From contig JAAYEC010000028.1 of assembly GCA_012728915.1 (NCBI GenBank), positions 1-64,000 of the forward strand: a stretch of 64,000 nucleotides of DNA, written 5' to 3'. Positions 3,067 to 30,385 of the stretch are shown here, one piece after another. The DNA is from Deltaproteobacteria bacterium. GTDB lineage: Bacteria; Desulfobacterota; Syntrophia; Syntrophales; UBA2192. Position numbers and translations under genes: made by a program. Below the pieces are notes generated by a model. That model did not search any database and was not told the origin of the DNA. It was given only the letters and a program-made list of their open reading frames with translations. Each line of letters opens with the position of its first letter. Positions within the stretch are counted from its first letter, which is position 1.

Positions 3067-3096
3067 TTGACAGGCCCTGCCGCCATCGGGTAGAAG
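3067..3096 (+). promoter_or_regulatory. Promoter of Phe leader / liv operon
   Basis: A consensus -35 box TTGACA (3067-3072), an 18-base spacer and TAGAAG (3091-3096) as a weaker -10. Transcription would start near 3103, just before the leader-peptide ribosome binding site. The same -10 sequence with the same spacing is seen upstream of the mltD-like gene. Confidence 0.55.
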
Positions 3097-3116
3097 GCTT
3101 GAACAAGGGGTTTATG

Positions 3117-3194
3117 ATGTACAGGCACATCGACGCGGGCAGCTTTTTCGCTTTTTTTAGCTTTTTCGGCTTCTTTCGGGAGGTCTGCCCATAG
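3117..3194 (+). CDS. Phenylalanine-rich attenuator leader peptide
   Basis: A 25-codon frame with sequence MYRHIDAGS, then FFAFFSFFGFF, then REVCP and TAG. Eight of eleven consecutive codons (3144-3176) are Phe. An ATG immediately upstream (3114) is in the same frame; 3117 is preferred because AAGGGG (3105-3110) sits 6 bases before it. Its layout parallels the enteric PheL (pheA) and PheM (pheST) leader peptides. The Phe codons lie in the loop between pairing segments 1 and 2 of the downstream attenuator, and the stop codon lies just past segment 2, which is the geometry attenuation requires. The peptide itself probably has no function; its translation is the sensor of charged tRNA-Phe. Confidence 0.8.
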   Translation: MYRHIDAGSFFAFFSFFGFFREVCP

Positions 3195-3249
3195 CGCCTG
3201 ACTGCAGATGAACAACCGGGCCGTGGGCAGACCAAAGCTGCCCACGGCC
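3137..3249 (+). promoter_or_regulatory. Phe attenuator: competing RNA hairpins
   Basis: Four segments pair in the classical mutually exclusive way. Segment 1 GGGCAG (3137-3142) pairs with CTGCCC (3185-3190). Segment 2 GGTCTGCCC (3182-3190) pairs perfectly with segment 3 GGGCAGACC (3225-3233), forming the antiterminator. Segment 3 GGCCGTGGGCAG (3219-3230) pairs with segment 4 CTGCCCACGGCC (3238-3249), forming the terminator. A ribosome stalled on the Phe codons would mask segment 1 and free segment 2 to form the antiterminator; a ribosome reaching the stop codon at 3192 would cover segment 2 and allow termination. The pairings are read directly; the mechanism is inferred from trp/phe/his operon attenuation. 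Confidence 0.8.
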
Positions 3250-3256
3250 TTTTTTT
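3219..3256 (+). terminator. Attenuator terminator 1
   Basis: A perfect 12-bp stem, GGCCGTGGGCAG (3219-3230) with CTGCCCACGGCC (3238-3249), a 7-base loop and seven T (3250-3256). A strong intrinsic terminator placed between the leader peptide and the first structural gene. Confidence 0.9.
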
Positions 3257-3262
3257 GAACCG

Positions 3263-3287
3263 GGCCGTGATCGACACGGCCTTTTTT
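3263..3287 (+). terminator. Attenuator terminator 2 (tandem)
   Basis: A second intrinsic terminator: GGCCGTG (3263-3269), loop ATCGA, CACGGCC (3275-3281), six T (3282-3287). Its left arm is also complementary to CACGGCC (3243-3249) inside terminator 1. If terminator 1 is not formed, that arm can therefore be captured by an alternative 7-bp hairpin and terminator 2 would fail too. Confidence 0.8.
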
Positions 3288-3310
3288 CATTTCAAGGGGA
3301 GGAGAGCACG

Positions 3311-4516
3311 ATGAAGGGTTCGATCTCGAAAACCATGACGGGGCTCCTGGCGGCGGCGCTGCTGGCGATGCCCGCAACGTCCCCGGCGGCAGCGCCCGTG
3401 AAGGTGGGTGCGGCCATCAACCTCACCGGCCCGGCATCCACCTGGGGCCAGTACCACGCGAAGGGCACGCAGGATTACCTGCGATACGTCAACGAGGTCA
3501 AGGGAGGAGTCGGAGGGCGCACCGTCGATCTGATCCTCGTGGATACGGGCTACAAGGTACCCGAAGCCGTGGCGGCCGTCAAAAAGTTTGCCATCCAGGA
3601 CAGGGTCGACATGATTCTCACCTGGGGTGCGGGGGAGGGGCTGGCAGCCAAACCGCTCGTCCAGGGCTACAAGATCCCCACGATCAACTACTCGACCAGC
3701 TGGGAGCTTCTGGAGAAACCCGTCGACTACATGTACCTTCCCTTCGGGAGCTACCGACTCGACTGCGCCGCCATCCTCGAATACATCAAGTCCATCCACA
3801 AAGGAAGCGATCCGCCGAAGGTGGGCCTCCTGACCTACAACAACGCCTACGGGCGCTCCATCCACAAGCCGAGCCAGGAATACGCAAAGGCAAACGGGAT
3901 CAACATCGTATCCATCGAGGAGTTCCCGCCCAGGACCGTAGACCTGACGACGGAGCTTCTCCGCCTCAAGAAGAACGGCGCCGAGTACGTCTTCATGCAG
4001 ATGCTGCCGGCCACGATCGTGACGACCTTCAAGAGCGCAGACCGCATCCAGTACAGCCCCCAGTTTTTCGGCACCTGGACCTCGACAGACCCGGACTTCT
4101 TCAAGCTGGGCAAGGGGCTCATCCGCGACCGCCTGAAGATGCAGTTCCCCGGCGGCCTGCCGGGCGACAAGGGAGCCGGCGTCGAAACGCTCAAGGAACT
4201 CTGGAAGCGCTATAAGACGGTCACCCGCTTCGACACCGCCTACTGGGAAGGCGTCGTGGTGGGCATGATCGTGGAGCGCGCCGCCCTGCGGGCTCAACAG
4301 AAGCACGGGAAGGTGGACCGCGACACGATCAACAGGGCGATGGAGACGTTCGCGAACGAGGATTTCGGCGGAATCCTCCCTCCCGTGACGTACACGAAGA
4401 CCAGCCACGAGGCGTCCTTCCGGGGGCGGATCGTCCAGGTGCGCGAGGACGGCTCCTTCAGGCCGCTGACCGATTTCTACACGCCCGGCAAAGAGAAGAT
4501 CCGGCACCTCAAGTAG
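3311..4516 (+). CDS. livK: ABC importer periplasmic binding protein (LivK family)
   Basis: A 401-residue solute-binding protein with a Sec signal peptide (GLLAAALLAMPATSPAAA, cleavage near residue 28) and a type I periplasmic fold of the branched-chain amino acid/amide receptor family (VKVGAAINLTGPASTWGQ, then a second lobe with GLLTYNNAYGRS). It captures ligand in the periplasm for the permease and ATPases encoded downstream. The ribosome binding site GGGGAGGAG lies 9 bases before ATG. The family binds Leu/Ile/Val but also aromatic amino acids, amides, urea and aromatic acids. The Phe leader upstream and the CoA ligase in the operon make an aromatic or hydrophobic ligand likely, but the ligand is inference. 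Confidence 0.9.
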   Translation: MKGSISKTMTGLLAAALLAMPATSPAAAPVKVGAAINLTGPASTWGQYHAKGTQDYLRYVNEVKGGVGGRTVDLILVDTGYKVPEAVAAVKKFAIQDRVDMILTWGAGEGLAAKPLVQGYKIPTINYSTSWELLEKPVDYMYLPFGSYRLDCAAILEYIKSIHKGSDPPKVGLLTYNNAYGRSIHKPSQEYAKANGINIVSIEEFPPRTVDLTTELLRLKKNGAEYVFMQMLPATIVTTFKSADRIQYSPQFFGTWTSTDPDFFKLGKGLIRDRLKMQFPGGLPGDKGAGVETLKELWKRYKTVTRFDTAYWEGVVVGMIVERAALRAQQKHGKVDRDTINRAMETFANEDFGGILPPVTYTKTSHEASFRGRIVQVREDGSFRPLTDFYTPGKEKIRHLK

Positions 4517-4525
4517 GAGAGGGGC

Positions 4526-5386
4526 ATGAAGACTTACCGGGGGGAACCCTCCATCTTCGCCTCTAGACCTCCGCAGGAGCGGCAGGCGGAGCTCGTCGTC
4601 GAGCGCCTCACCCTGCGCTTCGGCGGCATCACGGCCGTCCACCGCGTGGACCTGAAGGTCTCGACGGGCGAGCTGGTTTCCGTCATCGGACCCAACGGGG
4701 CCGGGAAGACGAGCCTGCTGAACTGCATCACGGGCTACTACAAGGCTCAGGAAGGGCGGATCCTCTTCAACGGCAAGGATATCTCGAACCTCCACACCCA
4801 TCGGCATATCCGGCACGGGATCGGAAGGACCTTCCAGAACATCGAGCTGTTTCCGGGGATGACGGTCCTGGCGAATCTCCTGCTTGCACGCCACCTGCAC
4901 TGCCGCTACGGCCTTGCCTCGGCCGCCTGTTTCTCCCCGAAGGCGAGAAACGAGGAGATCCGGCAGCGGCGGCTCATCGAGGAGATCATCGATTTCCTCG
5001 AGATCCAGGCGATCCGCAAGAAGCTCGTGGGGTCTCTTCCCTACGGGATGCGCAAGCGCGTGGAGCTGGGGCGCGCGCTTGCCCTGGAGCCGCGGCTCCT
5101 CGTCCTGGATGAGCCCTTCGCCGGGATGAACCTGGAGGAAAAAGAGGACATGGTCCGGTTTCTCCTGGAGCTCTCCGAGTCGTGGGGGCAGACCATGATC
5201 CTCGTGGAGCACGACATGTCGATCGTCATGAGCATCTCGAAGCGGATCATGGTGCTCAACTTCGGCGAGAAACTCGCCGAGGGGACCCCGGATGAGATCC
5301 AGGCCGACCCCGAAGTCATCCGGGCCTACCTCGGGGACCGCGACGGTGCGGGAGACGACGCATCGAAGGCGGAGGGTGGCGGATGA
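4526..5386 (+). CDS. livG: ABC importer ATPase, LivG type
   Basis: A 286-residue ATP-binding subunit. It shows Walker A GPNGAGKTS (about residues 55-63), a signature region LPYGMRKRVELGRAL replacing the usual LSGGQ-like motif, Walker B LLVLDEP and the H-loop in ILVEHDMSIVM. The extended insert between Walker A and the signature (HRHIRHGIGRTFQNIELFPGMTV) and the closing GTPDEIQADPEVIRAYLG are typical of LivG. It energises uptake together with LivF. A 30-residue N-terminal extension precedes the domain. The start follows an AGGAG site. The end overlaps the next gene by ATGA, indicating translational coupling to the acyl-CoA ligase. Confidence 0.93.
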   Translation: MKTYRGEPSIFASRPPQERQAELVVERLTLRFGGITAVHRVDLKVSTGELVSVIGPNGAGKTSLLNCITGYYKAQEGRILFNGKDISNLHTHRHIRHGIGRTFQNIELFPGMTVLANLLLARHLHCRYGLASAACFSPKARNEEIRQRRLIEEIIDFLEIQAIRKKLVGSLPYGMRKRVELGRALALEPRLLVLDEPFAGMNLEEKEDMVRFLLELSESWGQTMILVEHDMSIVMSISKRIMVLNFGEKLAEGTPDEIQADPEVIRAYLGDRDGAGDDASKAEGGG

Positions 5387-7356
5387 GCGTGACGGAACGC
5401 AAGGGGCTGGTCAACGGCAACGGCCGGACGAGGCTCGATGCGGAGACGCTCGAGGCCTACGGCAGGCACACGCTTCCGCAGATCCTGAGCGAACAGGCCA
5501 GGCGCCTGAAAGCGAGCGACGTTGCGATACGGGAAAAAGCCTACGGCATCTGGCAGACGGTCAACTGGGAGGAGTACTTCAGCTACGTGCGGCGGACGGC
5601 TCTCGGTCTGATGGGCATCGGCGTGCGTCGGAGGGACAATGTGGCCATCGTGACGAACAACCACCCCGAATGGCTCTACAGCGAGCTCGGGGCGCAAGCC
5701 GTGGGCTGCGTGACGGTGAATCTCTTCACCTCGTCGATCGCCGACGAACTGGCCGAGGCGCTCAAGAGGTTCCAGCCGACGGTGGCCGTCGTGCAGGACC
5801 AGGAGCAGGTCGACAAGCTCCTTGAAACCCGCCCGAGGCTCGGCTTCATCAAGACCGTGGTCTACGTGGATCCCACGGGAATGCGCACCTACCGCGACAA
5901 CCCCTGGCTCATGAGCTTCCGGGAACTTCTCGAAAGGGGAGACGAGATCGAGAAGGAGAATCCGCAGCTTTTCCAGTCGGAGCTCTGGCGGGGAAAGCCC
6001 GACGACGTGGCCGTCATGATCCAGACTTCGGGGACGACGGGCCTGCCGAAGCTCGCCATGCTCACGCACCGGAATTTCACCGCCATGGCGCGCAAGTGGA
6101 TCGAGGCGACCCCCATCGGCATCGGGTCGAACTGGCTTTCCATCACTCCGCCCGCCTGGATCGTCGACCAGATCTGGGGCGTGGGCATCGCGCTCACGGG
6201 AGGCCTGACGATGAACTTCCCCGAGACGGCCGAGACGATCGAGACGGACTTCCGGGAGATCGGGCCCGACGTGATCGTGTCCTCGTCGAGGTTCTGGGAG
6301 GACCTCGCCTCGAAGATCCGCGTGAAGATGGCGGACGCCAGCGTCCTGAAACGCAGACTCTTCCAGACGGCCGAGAAGATCGGCAGGAGGGTTGTGGATG
6401 CCGAGGCCGAGAAGGCGCCCCTGACGGCCTCGATGCGCTGGATGCGCCGGATCGCCTCGTCGCTTGTCTTCCGGCCGCTCATGGACCGTGTGGGCTGCCT
6501 CGGCCTGACGACCGCCTACACGGGCGGGCATCCCATCAGTCCCGAGGTCATCCGGTTCTTCCGGGCCTGTGGTCTCAACCTCAAGCAGTGCTACGGCCTC
6601 ACCGAGGCGGGAGGCATCTTCCAGGTTCAGCCGGACGGCGAGGTGAAGCCCGAGACGGTGGGCAAGGCCCTGCCCGGGACGGAGGTGCGGATTGCCGAGG
6701 ATCAGGAAATCCTCGTCAAGAGCATCGCCAACTTCGCGGGCTACTACAAGGACTTCAAGTCTACCGAGAACGCCTTCCGGGACGGCTGGCTTCGCACGGG
6801 TGACGCGGGATACCTCGATGCCGACGGGCACCTCGTCATCATCGGGCGCAAGGAGGAGATCATCCGCAACAAGTCCGGCGCCGCCTTTTCCCCCGACTTC
6901 ATCGAGACACGGCTCAAGTTCAGCCCCTACATCAAGGAGGCCGTCGTCTTCGGCGAGGGCAGACCTTACATCTCGGCTTTCATCAACATCGACATGGGCA
7001 ACGTGGGCAACTGGGCCGAGGAGCGGATGATCCCCTACACGACCTACACGGACCTCTCCCAGCAGCCGAAGGTGGAGGAGCTGATCTTCGGGGAAATTCG
7101 GGCCGTCAACGAACGGCTCCCCGACTACATGAAGATCAGGAAGTTTCTCCTGCTGTACAAGCTGCTCGATGCCGACGACGAGGAGCTGACCCGGACGGGC
7201 AAGGTTCGGCGCCGCTTTGTCTACGGTCTGTACCTGAATCTCATCGAGGCCGTGTATAAGAACCTCAAGGAGCTGGAGGTGAAGAGCCAGGTTCGTTACC
7301 GCGACGGCCAGGTGGGGAAGATCGAGACGACGGTGAAAATACACGACGTTCCATAA
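5383..7356 (+). CDS. Long-chain-type acyl-CoA synthetase inside liv operon
   Basis: A 657-residue adenylate-forming ligase (ANL superfamily, long-chain acyl-CoA synthetase group) that would convert a carboxylic acid, ATP and CoA to acyl-CoA, AMP and PPi in the cytoplasm. Visible motifs are the P-loop TSGTTGLPKLAMLTHRN (near residue 217), YGLTEAGG (near 404), GWLRTGDAGYLDADGHL (near 468) and IIGRKEEIIRNKSGAAFSP. It lies between livG and livH, overlapping livG by 4 bases and 10 bases before livH. Ligases within Liv-type operons are known in several proteobacteria and suggest that the imported acid is activated on entry. The substrate (fatty, aryl or branched acid) is not determined by sequence. 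Confidence 0.9.
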   Translation: MSVTERKGLVNGNGRTRLDAETLEAYGRHTLPQILSEQARRLKASDVAIREKAYGIWQTVNWEEYFSYVRRTALGLMGIGVRRRDNVAIVTNNHPEWLYSELGAQAVGCVTVNLFTSSIADELAEALKRFQPTVAVVQDQEQVDKLLETRPRLGFIKTVVYVDPTGMRTYRDNPWLMSFRELLERGDEIEKENPQLFQSELWRGKPDDVAVMIQTSGTTGLPKLAMLTHRNFTAMARKWIEATPIGIGSNWLSITPPAWIVDQIWGVGIALTGGLTMNFPETAETIETDFREIGPDVIVSSSRFWEDLASKIRVKMADASVLKRRLFQTAEKIGRRVVDAEAEKAPLTASMRWMRRIASSLVFRPLMDRVGCLGLTTAYTGGHPISPEVIRFFRACGLNLKQCYGLTEAGGIFQVQPDGEVKPETVGKALPGTEVRIAEDQEILVKSIANFAGYYKDFKSTENAFRDGWLRTGDAGYLDADGHLVIIGRKEEIIRNKSGAAFSPDFIETRLKFSPYIKEAVVFGEGRPYISAFINIDMGNVGNWAEERMIPYTTYTDLSQQPKVEELIFGEIRAVNERLPDYMKIRKFLLLYKLLDADDEELTRTGKVRRRFVYGLYLNLIEAVYKNLKELEVKSQVRYRDGQVGKIETTVKIHDVP

Positions 7357-7366
7357 GGAGATTCAG

Positions 7367-8245
7367 ATGGACTTCTTTGTGCAGCTGCTGATCAACGGCG
7401 TGAGCATCGGGTTCCTCTACGGGCTGTCCGCCATGGGCTTCGTCATGATCTTCAAGTCCTCCAGCGTGCTCAATTTCGCCCACGGCGAGATCCTGGCATT
7501 CGGCGCCTTCCTGTTCCTGGCGCTCGCGACCTGGGCGCAGCTGCCCATCGCGCTCGCCTTCGTCGTGACGCTGGCCGGGGCCTTTGTCCTGGGATTCGTC
7601 ATCGAGCGGATCTTCCTCCGTCCCCTGATCGGCGAGCCCCTCATCCAGGTCATCATGCTCACCGTGGGGCTTGCCGCCATGTTCAAGGGTGGGATGCTGC
7701 TTCTCTGGGGAGGCAATCTCTACACCTACCCCGAGTTCCTTCCCGAGGGGCTGGGGATCCATTGGGGCATCGTCCAGGTTCCCCCCGTCTACGTGGCGGC
7801 CGTTCTCATCGGCAGTCTCTTCCTGCTGATGTTCGGCCTGTTCTTCAAGTTTTCCTCCCAGGGCATCTACATGCGTTCCGTGGCGGACAATCAACCGGCG
7901 GCGCTCTCCCTGGGCGTTCACGTCCGGCGGGTCTTCGCCCTGTCCTGGGCCATTGCGGCCATGGTGGCGGGCATCAGCGGGATCGTGCTCGGCATCATCA
8001 ACGGTATCAACGTCCACGAGCTCTCCTCGATCGGCCTGAAGGTCTTTCCCGTTGTCATCCTGGGGGGACTCGACTCGATCGGGGGGGCCATCATCGGCGG
8101 ACTGATCATCGGGCTGCTGGAGACCTTCACGGGCGGCTACCTCTCGCCGTCGCTGCGGGACATCGTGCCCTACATCGCACTGGTGTTCATCCTGCTCGTG
8201 AAACCCTACGGCCTCTTCGGCCTGGTCGAGATCGAGCGGGTGTAA
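7367..8245 (+). CDS. livH: ABC importer permease, LivH type
   Basis: A 292-residue integral membrane permease with about eight hydrophobic helices. It contains the LivH hallmark SSVLNFAHGEILAFGAF near residue 37 and the C-terminal GGLDSIGGAIIGGLIIGLLE loop (19 of those residues match the family pattern by eye). It forms the inner-membrane channel with LivM. An AAGGAG site precedes the start. It sits directly after the ligase gene and 18 bases before livM, within one operon. Confidence 0.93.
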   Translation: MDFFVQLLINGVSIGFLYGLSAMGFVMIFKSSSVLNFAHGEILAFGAFLFLALATWAQLPIALAFVVTLAGAFVLGFVIERIFLRPLIGEPLIQVIMLTVGLAAMFKGGMLLLWGGNLYTYPEFLPEGLGIHWGIVQVPPVYVAAVLIGSLFLLMFGLFFKFSSQGIYMRSVADNQPAALSLGVHVRRVFALSWAIAAMVAGISGIVLGIINGINVHELSSIGLKVFPVVILGGLDSIGGAIIGGLIIGLLETFTGGYLSPSLRDIVPYIALVFILLVKPYGLFGLVEIERV

Positions 8246-8263: not shown

Positions 8264-9334
8264 ATGAGGACCCTTCGCTTCCGCCCCTGCGGAAACTTCA
8301 AGACCCGGTACCGGGAGGAACTGGCCGTCTTCGAGACGGACTTCGGGAGGCTGTGGGCCGCTGCGGGTCTTGCAGCGCTCTTCGTCCTCACGCCCTGGGT
8401 CACCACCCCCTACCTGCTCTACGTGGTGAATCTCATCGGGATATCGGCGATTGCGGCCCTGGGGCTCAACATCCTCGTGGGATACACGGGCCTCATTTCC
8501 CTGGGTCACGGCGCCTTCTTCGGGGTGGGGGCCTACGCGGCGGGTATCCTGTCCGTCACGTACGGGGTGCCGTTCCTCGTGGTCGTTCCCCTGGCCGGGC
8601 TGGCGACAGCCGTCGTCGGGATGGTCTTCGGGATCCCCTCTGGAAGGCTGAAGGGGCTTTACCTGACGATCGCGACGCTGGCGGGCCAGTTCATCATCGA
8701 GTACGTTCTCGTTCACTGGGAGAGCGTAACGGGAGGGACCATGGGGATGACACTGCCCGCGCCCGTGCTCTTCGGGATTCCCCTGGCGGGAGACACAATG
8801 TTTTTCTACGCGATCTACAGCACGGCGGTCCTCATGGTCTTTGCCGCGGTAAATCTCATGCGGACGCGCTTCGGGCGAGCCTTCGTGGCCATCCGGGACA
8901 ACGACCGGGCCGCAGAGGGCATGGGGATCCCGATCTTTCCGTACAAGCTGCTCTCCTTCGCGGTGAGTTCCTTCTATGCCGGCGTGGCAGGCGCCCTCTG
9001 GGCCTACTACATGATCAGCATCACGGCGGAGCCCTTCAATCTGGGACTTTCCGTGGAATACATCGCCATGGTGATCATCGGGGGGCTCGGGAGTATTTCC
9101 GGGGCGATCTTCGGCACCGTGTTCATCACGCTGCTCAACGAGGGGCTGCGCTGGGTCACGGACACGATCATGAACATGGGCGGGGTCGCCGGCGTGGAGC
9201 TGACGCTTGCCCCCCTTCGGGAGTTTGTCTTCGGCCTGGCCATTGTGCTCTTCATTCTGTTCGAACCGAGAGGCCTGGCGGAAGTGTGGAGAATCATCAA
9301 GTCGAGCTTCAAGCTGTGGCCGTTCTCGTATTAA
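8264..9334 (+). CDS. livM: ABC importer permease, LivM type
   Basis: A 356-residue permease with multiple hydrophobic helices and the LivM signature GYTGLISLGHGAFFGVGAY near residue 75, plus the cytoplasmic coupling region TRFGRAFVAIRDNDRAAEGMG and GGLGSISGAIFGTVFI. The 30-residue hydrophilic N-terminal extension (TLRFRPCGNFKTRYREELAVF) is longer than in E. coli LivM but common in liv-like systems. It pairs with LivH to form the translocation path. Confidence 0.93.
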   Translation: MRTLRFRPCGNFKTRYREELAVFETDFGRLWAAAGLAALFVLTPWVTTPYLLYVVNLIGISAIAALGLNILVGYTGLISLGHGAFFGVGAYAAGILSVTYGVPFLVVVPLAGLATAVVGMVFGIPSGRLKGLYLTIATLAGQFIIEYVLVHWESVTGGTMGMTLPAPVLFGIPLAGDTMFFYAIYSTAVLMVFAAVNLMRTRFGRAFVAIRDNDRAAEGMGIPIFPYKLLSFAVSSFYAGVAGALWAYYMISITAEPFNLGLSVEYIAMVIIGGLGSISGAIFGTVFITLLNEGLRWVTDTIMNMGGVAGVELTLAPLREFVFGLAIVLFILFEPRGLAEVWRIIKSSFKLWPFSY

Positions 9335-9375: not shown

Positions 9376-10176
9376 ATGGAGAGCAAGCAGCTCGTCATCA
9401 ACAATATCAGCGTCGTCTATTCCGACGTGATCCAGGTCCTCAAGGGGGTCTCGCTCTCTGTGGAGCAGGGGCAGATCGTCTCGCTGCTCGGCAGCAACGG
9501 CGCCGGCAAGACGACGACCCTCAAAGCCGTCTCGGGGCTCCTGAAACCCGAGAACGGGGAGGTCACCGAGGGGAGCATCCTGTTCGACGGGTTGCCGATT
9601 CACAATCAATCGCCCGAGACGATCACGCGGGCCGGGATCATCCAGGTCCTCGAGGGCCGCCAGCCGTTCAAGTACCTCACCATCGAGGAAAACCTCCGCG
9701 TCGGCACGGCCACTCGCTGGGGAAAGCCCTACCGGCAGGACCTCGACAAGGTCTACCATTATTTTCCGGCGCTGACAAAGCGCCGGAAGACGCTCGCCGG
9801 ATACTGCAGCGGGGGCGAGATGCAGATGCTCGTCATCGGGCGCGCGCTCATGGCCCACCCGAGGCTGCTTCTGCTGGACGAGCCGTCGCTGGGGCTGGCG
9901 CCTCTCATCGTAAAGGAGATCTTCCAGATCATCGAGCGCATCAACCGCGAGGACGGCACGACGATCGTACTCGTGGAGCAGAACGCCAACATGGCCCTCC
10001 AGATCGCGACCTACGGTTACGTCATGGAGAACGGAAAGATCGTCATGGAGGGCGGCGCCGGAGATCTGCGGGAGAATCCCGACGTCAAGGAGTTCTACCT
10101 CGGCATGGGGGCCGCCGGTACGGCCAAGTCATACAGGGACGTGAAGGCGTACAAGCGAAGGAAGAGGTGGCTCTGA
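9376..10176 (+). CDS. livF: ABC importer ATPase, LivF type
   Basis: A 266-residue second ATPase of the importer. It has Walker A GSNGAGKTTTLKAVSGL (near residue 42), the LivF-like signature CSGGEMQMLVIGRALM, Walker B LLLLDEPSLGLAP and the H-loop VLVEQNANMAL. A much longer open frame upstream in the same phase is a shadow of livH/livM; the start at 9376 is chosen from the family N-terminus and the AAAGGGAAG site just upstream. The C-terminus ends with a basic tail (AYKRRKRWL). Confidence 0.93.
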   Translation: MESKQLVINNISVVYSDVIQVLKGVSLSVEQGQIVSLLGSNGAGKTTTLKAVSGLLKPENGEVTEGSILFDGLPIHNQSPETITRAGIIQVLEGRQPFKYLTIEENLRVGTATRWGKPYRQDLDKVYHYFPALTKRRKTLAGYCSGGEMQMLVIGRALMAHPRLLLLDEPSLGLAPLIVKEIFQIIERINREDGTTIVLVEQNANMALQIATYGYVMENGKIVMEGGAGDLRENPDVKEFYLGMGAAGTAKSYRDVKAYKRRKRWL

Positions 10177-10283: not shown

Positions 10284-11552
10284 ATGGCGGTGAAGAAGAC
10301 GAGCCGGTATTTCGACGGGAAGGAGAGGCGGAGCCAGGAGCAGCGGCGGGCGGATCAGGCGGGAGAGCTGGCCGCGATGATGCGGCTCGCCGTGAGGAAG
10401 TCGCCGGCCGTCCGCAGGCTGATCGAGCCCTTCGGGATTGCGCCCACCAGGCGCAATGCCTTCGAGCTGCTCAAGGGGCTCCCCGTGATCTCGCGCGAGA
10501 GACTCGTCCAGATGGAAATCGAAGACCCGCCCTACGCGGGGCTGGGCAACCCCGATGCCATGGTGGACCGCATTTTCACGTCTCCGGGACCGGTCTACGA
10601 GCCCCACCTCTCCGAGGCGGAGCCGATCTGGGCGAGGGCCTACCGCGCCGCGGGATTCGGACCCGGTGACGTGGTCCTCAACGCCTTTTCCTACCATCTG
10701 GTCGCGGCGGGCCTGACCTTTCACAGCGGGCTTCGCCGTGTCGGCGCAACCGTCGTCCCCTCGGGCGCGTCGAGCACCGCCGTCCAGGTGCAGCTCATTC
10801 GCGACCTGAAGGTGACCGGGTACACGGGCACGCCGAGCTTTCTCAAGGCCGTCATCGGGAGGGCCGAAGAGGAGGGGCACGATTTTCGGAAGGACTTCAG
10901 GCTTCGCAGGGCGTCCTTCGCGGCCGAGCCGCTTCTTCCCTCGCTGCGGGCCGAGTTCGAGGGAACCTACGGGATCGACACCTACCAGATGTACGGTGCC
11001 ACCGAGGTGGGCGACGTGGCCTACGAGTGCCGGGAGAAAAACGGATGGCACCTTGGCGAGGAGGTCATCGTGGAGATCGTGGACCCCGAGACGGGACGCG
11101 AGGTCAAGCCCGGTGAGTTGGGCGAGGTGGTGGTCACGCGCATCAACACGATCCTTTTCCTTTTCCGGTTCGGGACGGGAGACCTCTCGAGACTGATCAC
11201 CGGGCGCTGCCCCTGCGGAAGGACAACGCCGAGGCTCGCGGGGATCGCGGGCCGGGTCGGGGAGGCCGTCAAGGTGCGCGGCCTCTTCGTCGCCCCCAGC
11301 CAGCTCCGAAAGATCGCCGAGAGCTTCCCGGGGCTGAAGTTCCAGGCCGTCGTCACCCGGGTCGACAACCGGGATTGCCTCACGGTCCGCATCGAAACGC
11401 AGGATGCGGAACGGGGCAAGGAAGCCCTTGCCCCGTTCCAAGAACATTTTGCGGAGATCTGCACGGTGCGAATCGACCGTTTCGAGGAAGTCCCGCCGGG
11501 GACTCTCCCCGAGGGCGGCAAGCCGATCGTGGACGGGCGCAGCTGGACGTAG
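10284..11552 (+). CDS. PaaK-like phenylacetate-CoA ligase family protein
   Basis: A 422-residue member of the phenylacetate-CoA ligase branch of the ANL superfamily. It shows YGATEVGDVAYEC (A5 region), RFGTGDLS (A7), a four-Cys-like CPCGRTTPRL segment, GRVGEAVKVRG (A8) and a terminal GGKPIVDGR that carries the usual catalytic lysine. The normal SSGTTG P-loop is replaced by FTSPGPVYEP, so ATP handling may differ from true PaaK. GGGAGGGAG precedes the ATG by 3 bases. It follows livF by 107 bases on the same strand with no obvious terminator, so it may be the last gene of the Phe-attenuated operon. Activation of an aryl or branched acid is the likely role; the substrate is unknown. Confidence 0.8.
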   Translation: MAVKKTSRYFDGKERRSQEQRRADQAGELAAMMRLAVRKSPAVRRLIEPFGIAPTRRNAFELLKGLPVISRERLVQMEIEDPPYAGLGNPDAMVDRIFTSPGPVYEPHLSEAEPIWARAYRAAGFGPGDVVLNAFSYHLVAAGLTFHSGLRRVGATVVPSGASSTAVQVQLIRDLKVTGYTGTPSFLKAVIGRAEEEGHDFRKDFRLRRASFAAEPLLPSLRAEFEGTYGIDTYQMYGATEVGDVAYECREKNGWHLGEEVIVEIVDPETGREVKPGELGEVVVTRINTILFLFRFGTGDLSRLITGRCPCGRTTPRLAGIAGRVGEAVKVRGLFVAPSQLRKIAESFPGLKFQAVVTRVDNRDCLTVRIETQDAERGKEALAPFQEHFAEICTVRIDRFEEVPPGTLPEGGKPIVDGRSWT

Positions 11553-28002: not shown

Positions 28003-29790
28003 ATGCAGGAACTCATGTCGGGAAACGAGGCCATTGCCCGCGGAGCCTGGGAGTGCGGCGCCGCCTTCGGCGCGGGATACCCCGGGACGCCGAGCACGGA
28101 AATCCTGGAGTCCTTCGCCCAGTACGAGGGCGTCTACGCCGAGTGGTCCCCCAACGAGAAGGTCGGGCTCGAGGTGGCGATCGGAGCCGCCTTTGCAGGG
28201 GCCCGGGCCATGGCCGTGATGAAGCACGTGGGGGTCAACGTGGCGGCCGACCCGCTGTTCACCGTCAGCTACACGGGCACCAACGGGGCGCTCGTGATCA
28301 TCACGGCCGACGACCCCTCGCTGCACAGCTCGCAGAACGAGCAGGACAACCGCAACTACGCCAAGTTCGCCAAGATCCCCATGCTGGAGCCGTCCGACAG
28401 TCAGGAGGCGAAGGACTTCATCAAGCTCGCCTTCGATCTGTCCGAGAAGTTCGACACGCCCGTCTTCCTGAGGACGACGACGCGCGTGTCCCACTCCAAG
28501 AGCGTCGTGCGACTCGAACCGAAGGCAACCATCGAGGACCGGACGGACATCAGGCACCTTCCCCTGAAGTACGTCATGGTGCCCGTCAACGCGAGGGCGC
28601 GGCGCCTCGAGGTGGAAAAGCGCATGCAGGCCCTCCAGGAGTGGGCGGAAACCTTCCCGGGTAACCGCGTGGAGCTGAACTCGGCCGAGGCAGGCATCAT
28701 CACGGCGGGCATGCCCTACAACTACGCAAAAGACGCCTTCCCGGGCTACTCCTGCCTGAAGCTGGGAATGGTCCACCCGTTGCCGGAGAGGCTGATCCGG
28801 GACTTCGCCTCGAAGGTGAAGAAACTCTACGTCGTCGAGGAGCTGGACCCCTTCATCGAGGAGCAGGTCAAGGCCATGGGCATCGAGGTGACGGGAAAGG
28901 CCGTCTTTCCCTACACCAACGAGTTCGATCCCGGCGTCGTCGAGAAGGCCGTCACCGGGAAATCGTCGGCACCGATCGTCGAACTGCCGACCATCCCGCC
29001 CCGGCCGCCGAACCTCTGCCCGGGGTGCCCGCACCGCGCCCTGTTCTATGCGCTGAACAAGACGAAGGCCTTCGTGTCGGGCGACATCGGCTGCTACACG
29101 CTGTCCTACATGAAGCCCCTCTCGGGGATGGACAGTTGCGTCTGCATGGGCGCGAGCATCGGGATCGCCCACGGCATGAGCAAGGCGCTGGGCCCGAAAG
29201 GGAAGGGGAAGGTCGTTGGCGTCATCGGCGATTCCACGTTCATTCACTCGGGAATCACGCCTCTGCTCAACGCGGCCTACAACCGCAGTAACGCCGTCTT
29301 CATCATCGCCGACAACCGGACAACGGCCATGACGGGGATGCAGGAACACCCGGCGACGGGGCAGACCCTCCAGGGAGAGAAGACGAAGGAGCTCGACTTC
29401 GCGGCCCTGGGGAAGGTCCTGGGCGTCGAGCGCGTCGAGGTCATCGACCCGCTGCAGTTCAAGAACACGGCGGAGGTCCTGAAGAGGGAACTCGGGAAGG
29501 AAGGCCCGTCGCTGATCATCTCCCGGTCGCCCTGCGTGCTGCTGATGAGTCGGAAGGCCGCCCATGCCGGCCACTTTTATGCGGATCCGGACAAGTGCAT
29601 CGGCTGCAAGGTCTGCCTGAGCTGCGGCTGCCCGGCCATTTCGTGGAAGGACTTCGAGAAGGCGGGCATGCCCCCGAGACCGGACAGGAAGAAGCAGAAG
29701 GGGATCGCCGTCATCGACGCCTCGCTCTGCACGGGCTGCACGCTTTGCGCGCAGCTCTGCCGACAGGAAGCCATCATGCGGGAGGGATGA
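28003..29790 (+). CDS. iorA: Indolepyruvate:ferredoxin oxidoreductase, alpha subunit
   Basis: A 595-residue thiamine-diphosphate enzyme subunit that oxidises aryl pyruvates (from Trp, Phe, Tyr transamination) to aryl-acetyl-CoA and reduces ferredoxin. It has an N-terminal pyrimidine-binding domain (SGNEAIARGAWECGAAFGAG), a ThDP-binding half with CPGCPHRALFYAL, GDIGCYTL and GDSTFIHSGI, and two C-terminal iron-sulfur motifs (CIGCKVCLSCGCP and CTGCTLCAQLCRQ). In anaerobes it is used for amino acid fermentation, or in reverse to make arylpyruvates. It precedes iorB by 7 bases. Confidence 0.95.
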   Translation: MQELMSGNEAIARGAWECGAAFGAGYPGTPSTEILESFAQYEGVYAEWSPNEKVGLEVAIGAAFAGARAMAVMKHVGVNVAADPLFTVSYTGTNGALVIITADDPSLHSSQNEQDNRNYAKFAKIPMLEPSDSQEAKDFIKLAFDLSEKFDTPVFLRTTTRVSHSKSVVRLEPKATIEDRTDIRHLPLKYVMVPVNARARRLEVEKRMQALQEWAETFPGNRVELNSAEAGIITAGMPYNYAKDAFPGYSCLKLGMVHPLPERLIRDFASKVKKLYVVEELDPFIEEQVKAMGIEVTGKAVFPYTNEFDPGVVEKAVTGKSSAPIVELPTIPPRPPNLCPGCPHRALFYALNKTKAFVSGDIGCYTLSYMKPLSGMDSCVCMGASIGIAHGMSKALGPKGKGKVVGVIGDSTFIHSGITPLLNAAYNRSNAVFIIADNRTTAMTGMQEHPATGQTLQGEKTKELDFAALGKVLGVERVEVIDPLQFKNTAEVLKRELGKEGPSLIISRSPCVLLMSRKAAHAGHFYADPDKCIGCKVCLSCGCPAISWKDFEKAGMPPRPDRKKQKGIAVIDASLCTGCTLCAQLCRQEAIMREG

Positions 29791-29797
29791 CAGGGAC

Positions 29798-30385
29798 ATG
29801 GAAGACAGGGTAAAGAGCCTGCTGCTTGCCGGCGTCGGGGGCCAGGGAATCCTGCTCGCGAGCGACATTATCTGCAAGGTCATGATGGGGAAGGGCTACG
29901 ACGTGAAGAAGAGCGAGGTCCACGGCATGGCCCAGCGCGGCGGCTGCGTGACAAGCCACGTTCGCTTCGGCCGAAAGGTTTACTCGCCGCTGGCCCGGAA
30001 AGGGGACGTCGACATCATCGTCTCCTTCGAGAAGCTCGAGTCGCTGCGCTACCTGGATTATCTCAAGCCGGGCGGGATGGTGCTCGTCAACGACGAGGAG
30101 ATCTACCCGCCTTCCGTGAACCTGGGAGAGGCCGATTATCCGGTGGGGATCTACGAGAGCCTCCGCTCCCGGATCGGGGCGGAGAACGTCAAGGTGGTCA
30201 CCGGTCCGGAACTTGCCGCGAGGGCCGGAAACCGGCGGGCCGTCAACACGGTCATGCTGGGGGCCATCTCCCGGTACATTCCCGGGATCGGCGTCGATGA
30301 GTGGAAGAACGTCCTCGCCGCGTCGCTGCCCGAAAAGATCATCGAGGCGAACCTCAAAGCCTTCGACCTGGGGCGTGCGGCCTGA
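29798..30385 (+). CDS. iorB: Indolepyruvate:ferredoxin oxidoreductase, beta subunit
   Basis: A 195-residue gamma-type subunit of the 2-oxoacid:ferredoxin oxidoreductase family, with GVGGQGILLASDIICKV near the N-terminus, EVHGMAQRGGCVTSHVRFG and a C-terminal helical part. It binds CoA and completes the IorAB complex. It is co-transcribed with iorA and followed by a promoter for the DnaJ-like gene. Confidence 0.94.
   Translation: MEDRVKSLLLAGVGGQGILLASDIICKVMMGKGYDVKKSEVHGMAQRGGCVTSHVRFGRKVYSPLARKGDVDIIVSFEKLESLRYLDYLKPGGMVLVNDEEIYPPSVNLGEADYPVGIYESLRSRIGAENVKVVTGPELAARAGNRRAVNTVMLGAISRYIPGIGVDEWKNVLAASLPEKIIEANLKAFDLGRAA

Follow-up and report, generated by a model that had tools for sequence, protein, structure and literature searches.

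A predicted phenylalanine attenuator with two tandem terminators precedes a Liv-type importer and acyl-CoA ligase operon in Syntrophales

Introduction

An operon for a branched-chain (Liv)-type importer in a Syntrophales genome carries an acyl-CoA ligase gene among its transporter genes and stands behind a leader that resembles a phenylalanine attenuator. What does such an operon bring into the cell, and why would its expression follow the supply of phenylalanine? We addressed this question in one stretch of 64,000 nucleotides, here called the window (contig JAAYEC010000028.1, positions 1 to 64,000, forward strand), from a genome of 2.79 Mb in 81 contigs, and in related genomes, the named ones being Syntrophales metagenome-assembled genomes and Smithella sp. 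D17. As in the enteric trp, pheA and pheST attenuators, the first gene is preceded by a leader peptide with many residues of the regulated amino acid, by competing 2:3 and 3:4 pairings and by an intrinsic terminator. Unlike in those systems, a Liv-type importer and an acyl-CoA ligase are controlled rather than a biosynthetic or tRNA-synthetase operon, no 1:2 helix is conserved in fixed register, and a second terminator has arms matching those of the first. The mechanism is of the classic trp/phe type, and its target, an importer and CoA-ligase operon, is new: our searches of the open-access literature turned up neither a transporter or importer operon nor ior genes under a Phe attenuator. In a 2013 survey, the Rfam attenuators listed were those for His, Leu, Thr and Trp alone, and a gamma-proteobacterial origin of amino acid attenuators, followed by few transfers, was put forward as a possibility (PMC3766115).

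Results

Promoter and leader peptide

The promoter read by the first-pass annotation of this DNA lies at 3067-3096 on the forward strand, with a -35 element TTGACA (3067-3072), an 18-bp spacer and a -10-like hexamer TAGAAG (3091-3096); the gene upstream is divergent. TTGAC is enriched in front of the leaders of orthologs, found no more than 110 nt upstream from the leader at 67 of 72 orthologous loci compared with 6 of 72 shuffled ones, and 49 of the 72 loci have it together with a -10-like hexamer. An A+G-rich stretch separates the promoter from the leader peptide gene (3117-3194, forward strand), which encodes 25 residues, MYRHIDAGSFFAFFSFFGFFREVCP* (asterisk, stop), from the second of two tandem ATG codons to the TAG at 3192-3194; the first ATG, at 3114, is an alternative start. 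Eight Phe codons fall within 11 (3144-3149, 3153-3158, 3162-3167 and 3171-3176), as the annotation had also read. No other short ORF on either strand of the 64 kb has at least five Phe in 11 residues, and eight Phe were reached by none of 2000 shuffles of the leader's upstream region.

This Phe richness is kept among relatives. At least five Phe in 11 residues are found at 64 of 77 named orthologous loci, compared with 2.6% of shuffles. In 34 leaders, the Phe codons stay TTT or TTC, and T-to-C changes fall mainly at third codon positions, as selection on the codons predicts. A LivK ortholog is present in 42 of 60 related genomes, with the attenuator directly upstream in 39 of the 42. The three without a Phe leader (G019, G035 and G047; loci L067, L070 and L069) all come from a single family, f13, in which the attenuator was apparently lost or replaced locally. 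A second group of leaders falls into a different order of the same phylum; there, the end of the peptide differs or is lost (M...NFFFFD*; for example MAVEDITISSTNFFFFD*) and the Phe codons, 2:3 and 3:4 are kept, indicating that constraint acts on RNA pairing and Phe codons and not on the peptide tail. At 3182-3194, the leader of the window's own genus ends in ...VCP*, three codons before the ...VCLxxS* of other families, with segment 2 nearly unchanged.

Mutually exclusive pairings downstream of the Phe codons

The leader region of the window folds more stably than expected (z = -4.6), with none of 200 shuffles equally stable. RNAalifold on the whole alignment recovered 3:4 and did not recover the alternative pairings, so we counted each pairing by name. 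The hub of the structure is segment 3 (GGCCGTGGGCAGACC, 3219-3233), which can pair with either segment 2 or segment 4. Its core GGCCGTGGGCAG (3219-3230) forms a perfect 12-bp hairpin, terminator 1, with segment 4 (CTGCCCACGGCC, 3238-3249), which together with seven T at 3250-3256 makes up CTGCCCACGGCCTTTTTTT (3238-3256). Its other face, GGGCAGACC (3225-3233), is complementary over 9 bp to segment 2 (GGTCTGCCC, 3182-3190), the 5' arm of the antiterminator, which overlaps the end of the leader ORF. A distal helix, missing from the list in the first-pass annotation, extends the antiterminator through GCCT (3196-3199) paired with 3218-3221.

Both alternatives are conserved. The 3:4 helix is paired in 96.4% of cells, and both sides have changed in 25 cells, a number matched by none of 500 shuffles. 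The 2:3 pairing is kept in 96.0% of cells including the distal helix and in 98.1% for the 9-bp helix alone; the distal helix itself is paired in 91.4%, and its pair 68-97 has changed on both sides in 10 sequences. Among 64 loci, where segment 3 has T in place of C, 11 loci carry the corresponding A in segment 4 and six carry it in segment 2. A single change followed by both partners is expected if the two pairings exclude each other. The calculated energies of the two helices are near balance, at -28.9 kcal/mol for 2:3 versus -27.4 kcal/mol for 3:4. Comparative data thus bear out, at the level of sequence, the leader, its Phe codons, the 2:3 and 3:4 pairings and the conservation of the operon behind them, and with them the annotation's 9-bp antiterminator and 12-bp terminator with seven T, both kept with compensatory changes in orthologs.

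The annotation's third pairing fared differently. GGGCAG (segment 1, 3137-3142) can pair with CTGCCC (3185-3190), and these letters are present, so that 1:2 can be drawn in the window. As a helix in fixed register it is paired in only 41.7% of cells across the orthologs, no better than shuffles. With the register left variable, 14 of 34 leaders reach p <= 0.05, and the 6 bp of the window itself give p = 0.11, which makes a 1:2 helix a weak candidate. Alignment of orthologous leaders, the check that the annotation had proposed, bore out the Phe codons and both the 2:3 and the 3:4 pairing, but for the most part not 1:2.

A second terminator and a possible six-segment relay

Terminator 1 is followed by a second one at 3263-3287, formed by segment 5 (GGCCGTG, 3263-3269), a loop ATCGA, segment 6 (CACGGCC, 3275-3281) and six T (3282-3287). 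Under Phe lack, 2:3 alone would leave this terminator free to halt transcription. However, the 3' arm of terminator 1, segment 4, is also complementary to the 5' arm of terminator 2, segment 5. The 4:5 pairing is possible in 94.6% of cells and 5:6 in 94.1%, and at two loci (L040 and L041) segment 5 has changed along with segment 4, at the cost of one 5:6 pair. Changes on both sides of 4:5 were counted in 3 cells only, and 12 of 500 shuffles reach that number. The calculated energies are -13.4 kcal/mol for 4:5 versus -14.3 kcal/mol for 5:6, so that the two states total about -42.3 (2:3 + 4:5) and about -41.7 kcal/mol (3:4 + 5:6). We considered whether the likeness of the two terminators is a chance product of a genome-wide terminator style and rejected this, since none of the other terminators found in the window shares their arms.

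Together, these features suggest the following mode of action. With enough phenylalanine, the ribosome would reach the stop codon and cover segment 2, so that both 3:4 and 5:6 form. When charged tRNA-Phe is short, it would stall at the first Phe codons, 2:3 would pair and block terminator 1, and the freed segment 4 would pair with segment 5, blocking terminator 2 and allowing the operon to be transcribed. The evidence for this relay of six segments, with 2:3 and 4:5 formed together, is moderate, and we regard it as a plausible mechanism. If real, it is a compact way for one leader peptide to control two terminators. The tandem attenuators of Salmonella mgtCBR likewise combine a leader ORF rich in codons for an amino acid, on a transporter operon, with more than one attenuating element; they differ in having two leader ORFs for two signals, ATP and proline (PMC3641672), where here one leader ORF faces two terminators.

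The operon encodes an importer and an acyl-CoA ligase

All genes of the operon lie on the forward strand. The first encodes a LivK-type periplasmic binding protein (3311-4516; Peripla_BP_6), followed by family matches to the LivG ATPase (4526-5386), the embedded acyl-CoA ligase with a canonical TSGTTG P-loop (5383-7356), and the LivH (7367-8245) and LivM (8264-9334) permeases. A LivF-type ATPase (9376-10176), assigned from its position, sequence and the conserved gene order, with a computationally set start, completes the transporter. Next to it lies a gene for a PaaK-like protein (10284-11552) whose P-loop reads SPGPVYEPH. The order livK-livG-ligase-livH-livM-livF is identical, with the acyl-CoA ligase inside, in every related locus long enough for testing, and the PaaK-like gene adjoins livF in 17 related loci. 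These orthologs, with the attenuator at 39 of 42 livK loci and compensatory changes in its helices, support the annotation's central claim of a trp/phe-type attenuator in front of a Liv-type importer and CoA-ligase operon; the response to phenylalanine is the one expected of such an architecture.

Which of the two ligase-like proteins would activate an imported acid? The embedded ligase keeps TSGTTG in 39 orthologs; its best matches are fatty-acid ligase models, far below their cut-offs. The PaaK-like protein scores 160.8 bits against a cut-off of 646.3 for phenylacetate-CoA ligase, and its altered P-loop, kept in 17 orthologs, raises the possibility that it is inactive as a ligase; a protein with this replaced motif possibly has a new function. 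The embedded ligase therefore appears to be the better candidate for acid activation.

Neither fold nor family models settled the substrate. The closest solved structure to LivK, the valine-bound 3lkb, has 24% identity, and the many Liv-type proteins matched by the AlphaFold model (pLDDT 85.6) hold valine, urea, aromatic acids or a fatty acid, ligands of several kinds between which the fold does not decide. The Liv-type aromatic-acid importers of Rhodopseudomonas palustris are, to our knowledge, not under amino acid attenuation. Their binding proteins (4dqd, 4evq and 4f8j) share LivK's fold family at only 16-18% identity. As a guide to the substrate we also discarded the ligase family models, since the embedded ligase and a ligase behind a related leader (L137) match generic or fatty-acid models only, below cut-off.

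Further downstream, the window encodes both subunits of an indolepyruvate ferredoxin oxidoreductase on the forward strand, iorA (alpha; 28003-29790; TIGR03336, 702.8 bits against a cut-off of 650.9) and iorB (beta; 29798-30385; NF005322, 241.9 bits against 237). They lie behind a homoserine dehydrogenase gene in a group of their own, 16 kb downstream of the liv operon and outside its transcript. In 14 genomes livK and iorA share a contig at a distance of about 16-31 kb, a linkage that may reflect general synteny.

Related leaders stand before other aromatic operons

Sibling leaders were found with a covariance model of the Phe leader. In the same order, leaders rich in Phe, Tyr or Trp precede aroF-type operons with aroB and pheA, and Trp-rich ones precede trpE-like genes, as read from their translations. 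The window's own genome has such an attenuated aro operon, with a confirmed pheA. Four Phe-rich leaders (L133-L136) precede a lone class I acyl-CoA ligase, which in L133 passes only a broad subfamily model, and a fifth (L137, in G027, a genome lacking the liv ortholog) precedes a sodium/solute symporter and then a CoA ligase.

Trp-rich leaders offer a parallel. Among 20 iorA regions read, 10 have a Trp-rich leader directly upstream of iorA. Two loci (L289 and L290) have a Trp leader followed by iorA, iorB, livH, livMG, PaaK and livK, so that one Trp attenuator precedes genes for IOR, an importer and a CoA ligase together; the PaaK proteins there score about 405 bits, and a canonical P-loop was read in that of L289. 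At another (L293), the Trp leader and iorA-iorB are followed by a TRAP importer, DctP-DctQ-DctM, and L294 is alike judging by ORF sizes. These gene orders point to the Trp-leader iorAB operons as attenuated indoleacetate-to-Trp salvage operons.

Discussion

We infer that this operon serves to rebuild phenylalanine from a precursor acid. An attenuator of this kind is expected to be on at Phe shortage, so the operon's products should supply phenylalanine. They would take up an aromatic acid, with phenylacetate the likeliest, and convert it to its CoA ester; IorAB would then carboxylate phenylacetyl-CoA to phenylpyruvate, from which a transaminase would make phenylalanine. Such salvage would be optional, given the genome's own pheA and attenuated aro operon. 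The strongest support for phenylacetate comes from the Trp-leader iorAB-liv-paaK operons, by analogy with which the Phe-attenuated operon would import and activate phenylacetate. A route from aryl acids over aryl-CoA and, by indolepyruvate oxidoreductase, arylpyruvate to aromatic amino acids by transamination is known from Methanococcus maripaludis (PMC4162585, PMC3462420); that route is archaeal and, in these papers, not linked to attenuation, and the one proposed here is bacterial and tied to importer operons. We consider the whole chain, from the sensing of charged tRNA-Phe through phenylacetate import and activation to carboxylation by IorAB and on to phenylalanine, probable.

The first-pass annotation had instead predicted an importer of phenylalanine. 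The Phe-type attenuator on a Liv operon with an embedded acyl-CoA ligase, from which it argued, stands; the import of phenylalanine itself is not well supported. Phe attenuation would suit any importer that supplies phenylalanine, amino acids are common ligands of Liv-type binding proteins, and the nearest solved one holds valine, so the same attenuator could govern the uptake of phenylalanine or aromatic amino acids, with the ligases serving another purpose. But phenylalanine needs no CoA ligase, and its plain import leaves unexplained the acyl-CoA ligase found within the operon at every locus long enough. Phe-rich leaders also precede CoA ligases without a Liv importer, and iorAB stands with Liv or TRAP importers behind Trp-rich leaders. 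We thus regard amino acid import as unlikely and a precursor acid, phenylacetate, as the better fit.

Improbable, in our judgement, is that phenylalanine is made from another aromatic acid, such as phenylpyruvate or phenylpropionate, or that the operon degrades aromatic compounds with the attenuator as a brake. Liv-type proteins with bound phenylpyruvate exist (4dqd), and Desulfococcus multivorans uses CoA ligases and IOR in phenylacetate and phenylpyruvate degradation (PMC5109826), but phenylpyruvate requires no CoA ligase, and switching on at Phe lack is the wrong sense for degradation. That there is no regulator at all, the hairpins marking where an upstream gene ends or belonging to a small RNA, and the Phe codons being a chance U-rich stretch, is hardly credible given a divergent upstream gene and conserved Phe codons and pairings, the weak shape match of both hairpins to the small RNAs SorX and SorY staying below gathering scores. 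SorX was the best Rfam match, and no amino acid leader family was among the matches up to E = 10.

More broadly, and only tentatively, we propose that the phylum may hold a so far overlooked group of operons for aryl-acid salvage, with Phe-rich leaders on importer and CoA-ligase operons and Trp-rich ones on iorAB with Liv or TRAP importers, and that the relay may dissolve two tandem terminators at once. A Phe-leader attenuator family is widespread here in a phylum other than the gamma-proteobacterial home proposed for amino acid attenuators (PMC3766115). The leader of an attenuated operon tells what the operon ultimately makes, and this offers a function for a large class of Liv-type importer and CoA-ligase operons whose annotation in uncultured anaerobes is vague. 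Such leaders also suggest that the rebuilding of Phe and Trp from aryl acids, a route examined mostly in methanogens, is under regulation as a trait of bacteria.

Several further leaders were observed. A Trp-codon pattern search in 20 genomes proved too loose, several matches looking like coding sequence, and was set aside. The Trp-rich leaders with attenuator hairpins 5' of iorA are L269, L270, L271, L272, L274-L277, L283 and L287, and the arrangement at L291 is similar to that at L289 and L290, judged by ORF sizes. Attenuators of the same design, rich in Phe, Tyr or Trp, stand before aroF-type, aroB and pheA operons at L131 (G000:C5:2557-2697) and L139-L149; in these, the arms of the two terminators often share CCATGG instead of CCGTGG. 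In other orders, Phe/Tyr-rich leaders precede proteins resembling, by eye, archaeal-type shikimate entry enzymes (L119-L122, L125 and L130) and genes that look like shikimate kinase or chorismate synthase (L114, L126 and L127). Finally, a Trp-rich leader, MMAGQARIHSIGWWWAGSSSRVCPS*, with an attenuator hairpin (L132:755-1090, in G000:C42) precedes a gene for a secreted protein of ~300 residues, by its look a putative outer-membrane channel.
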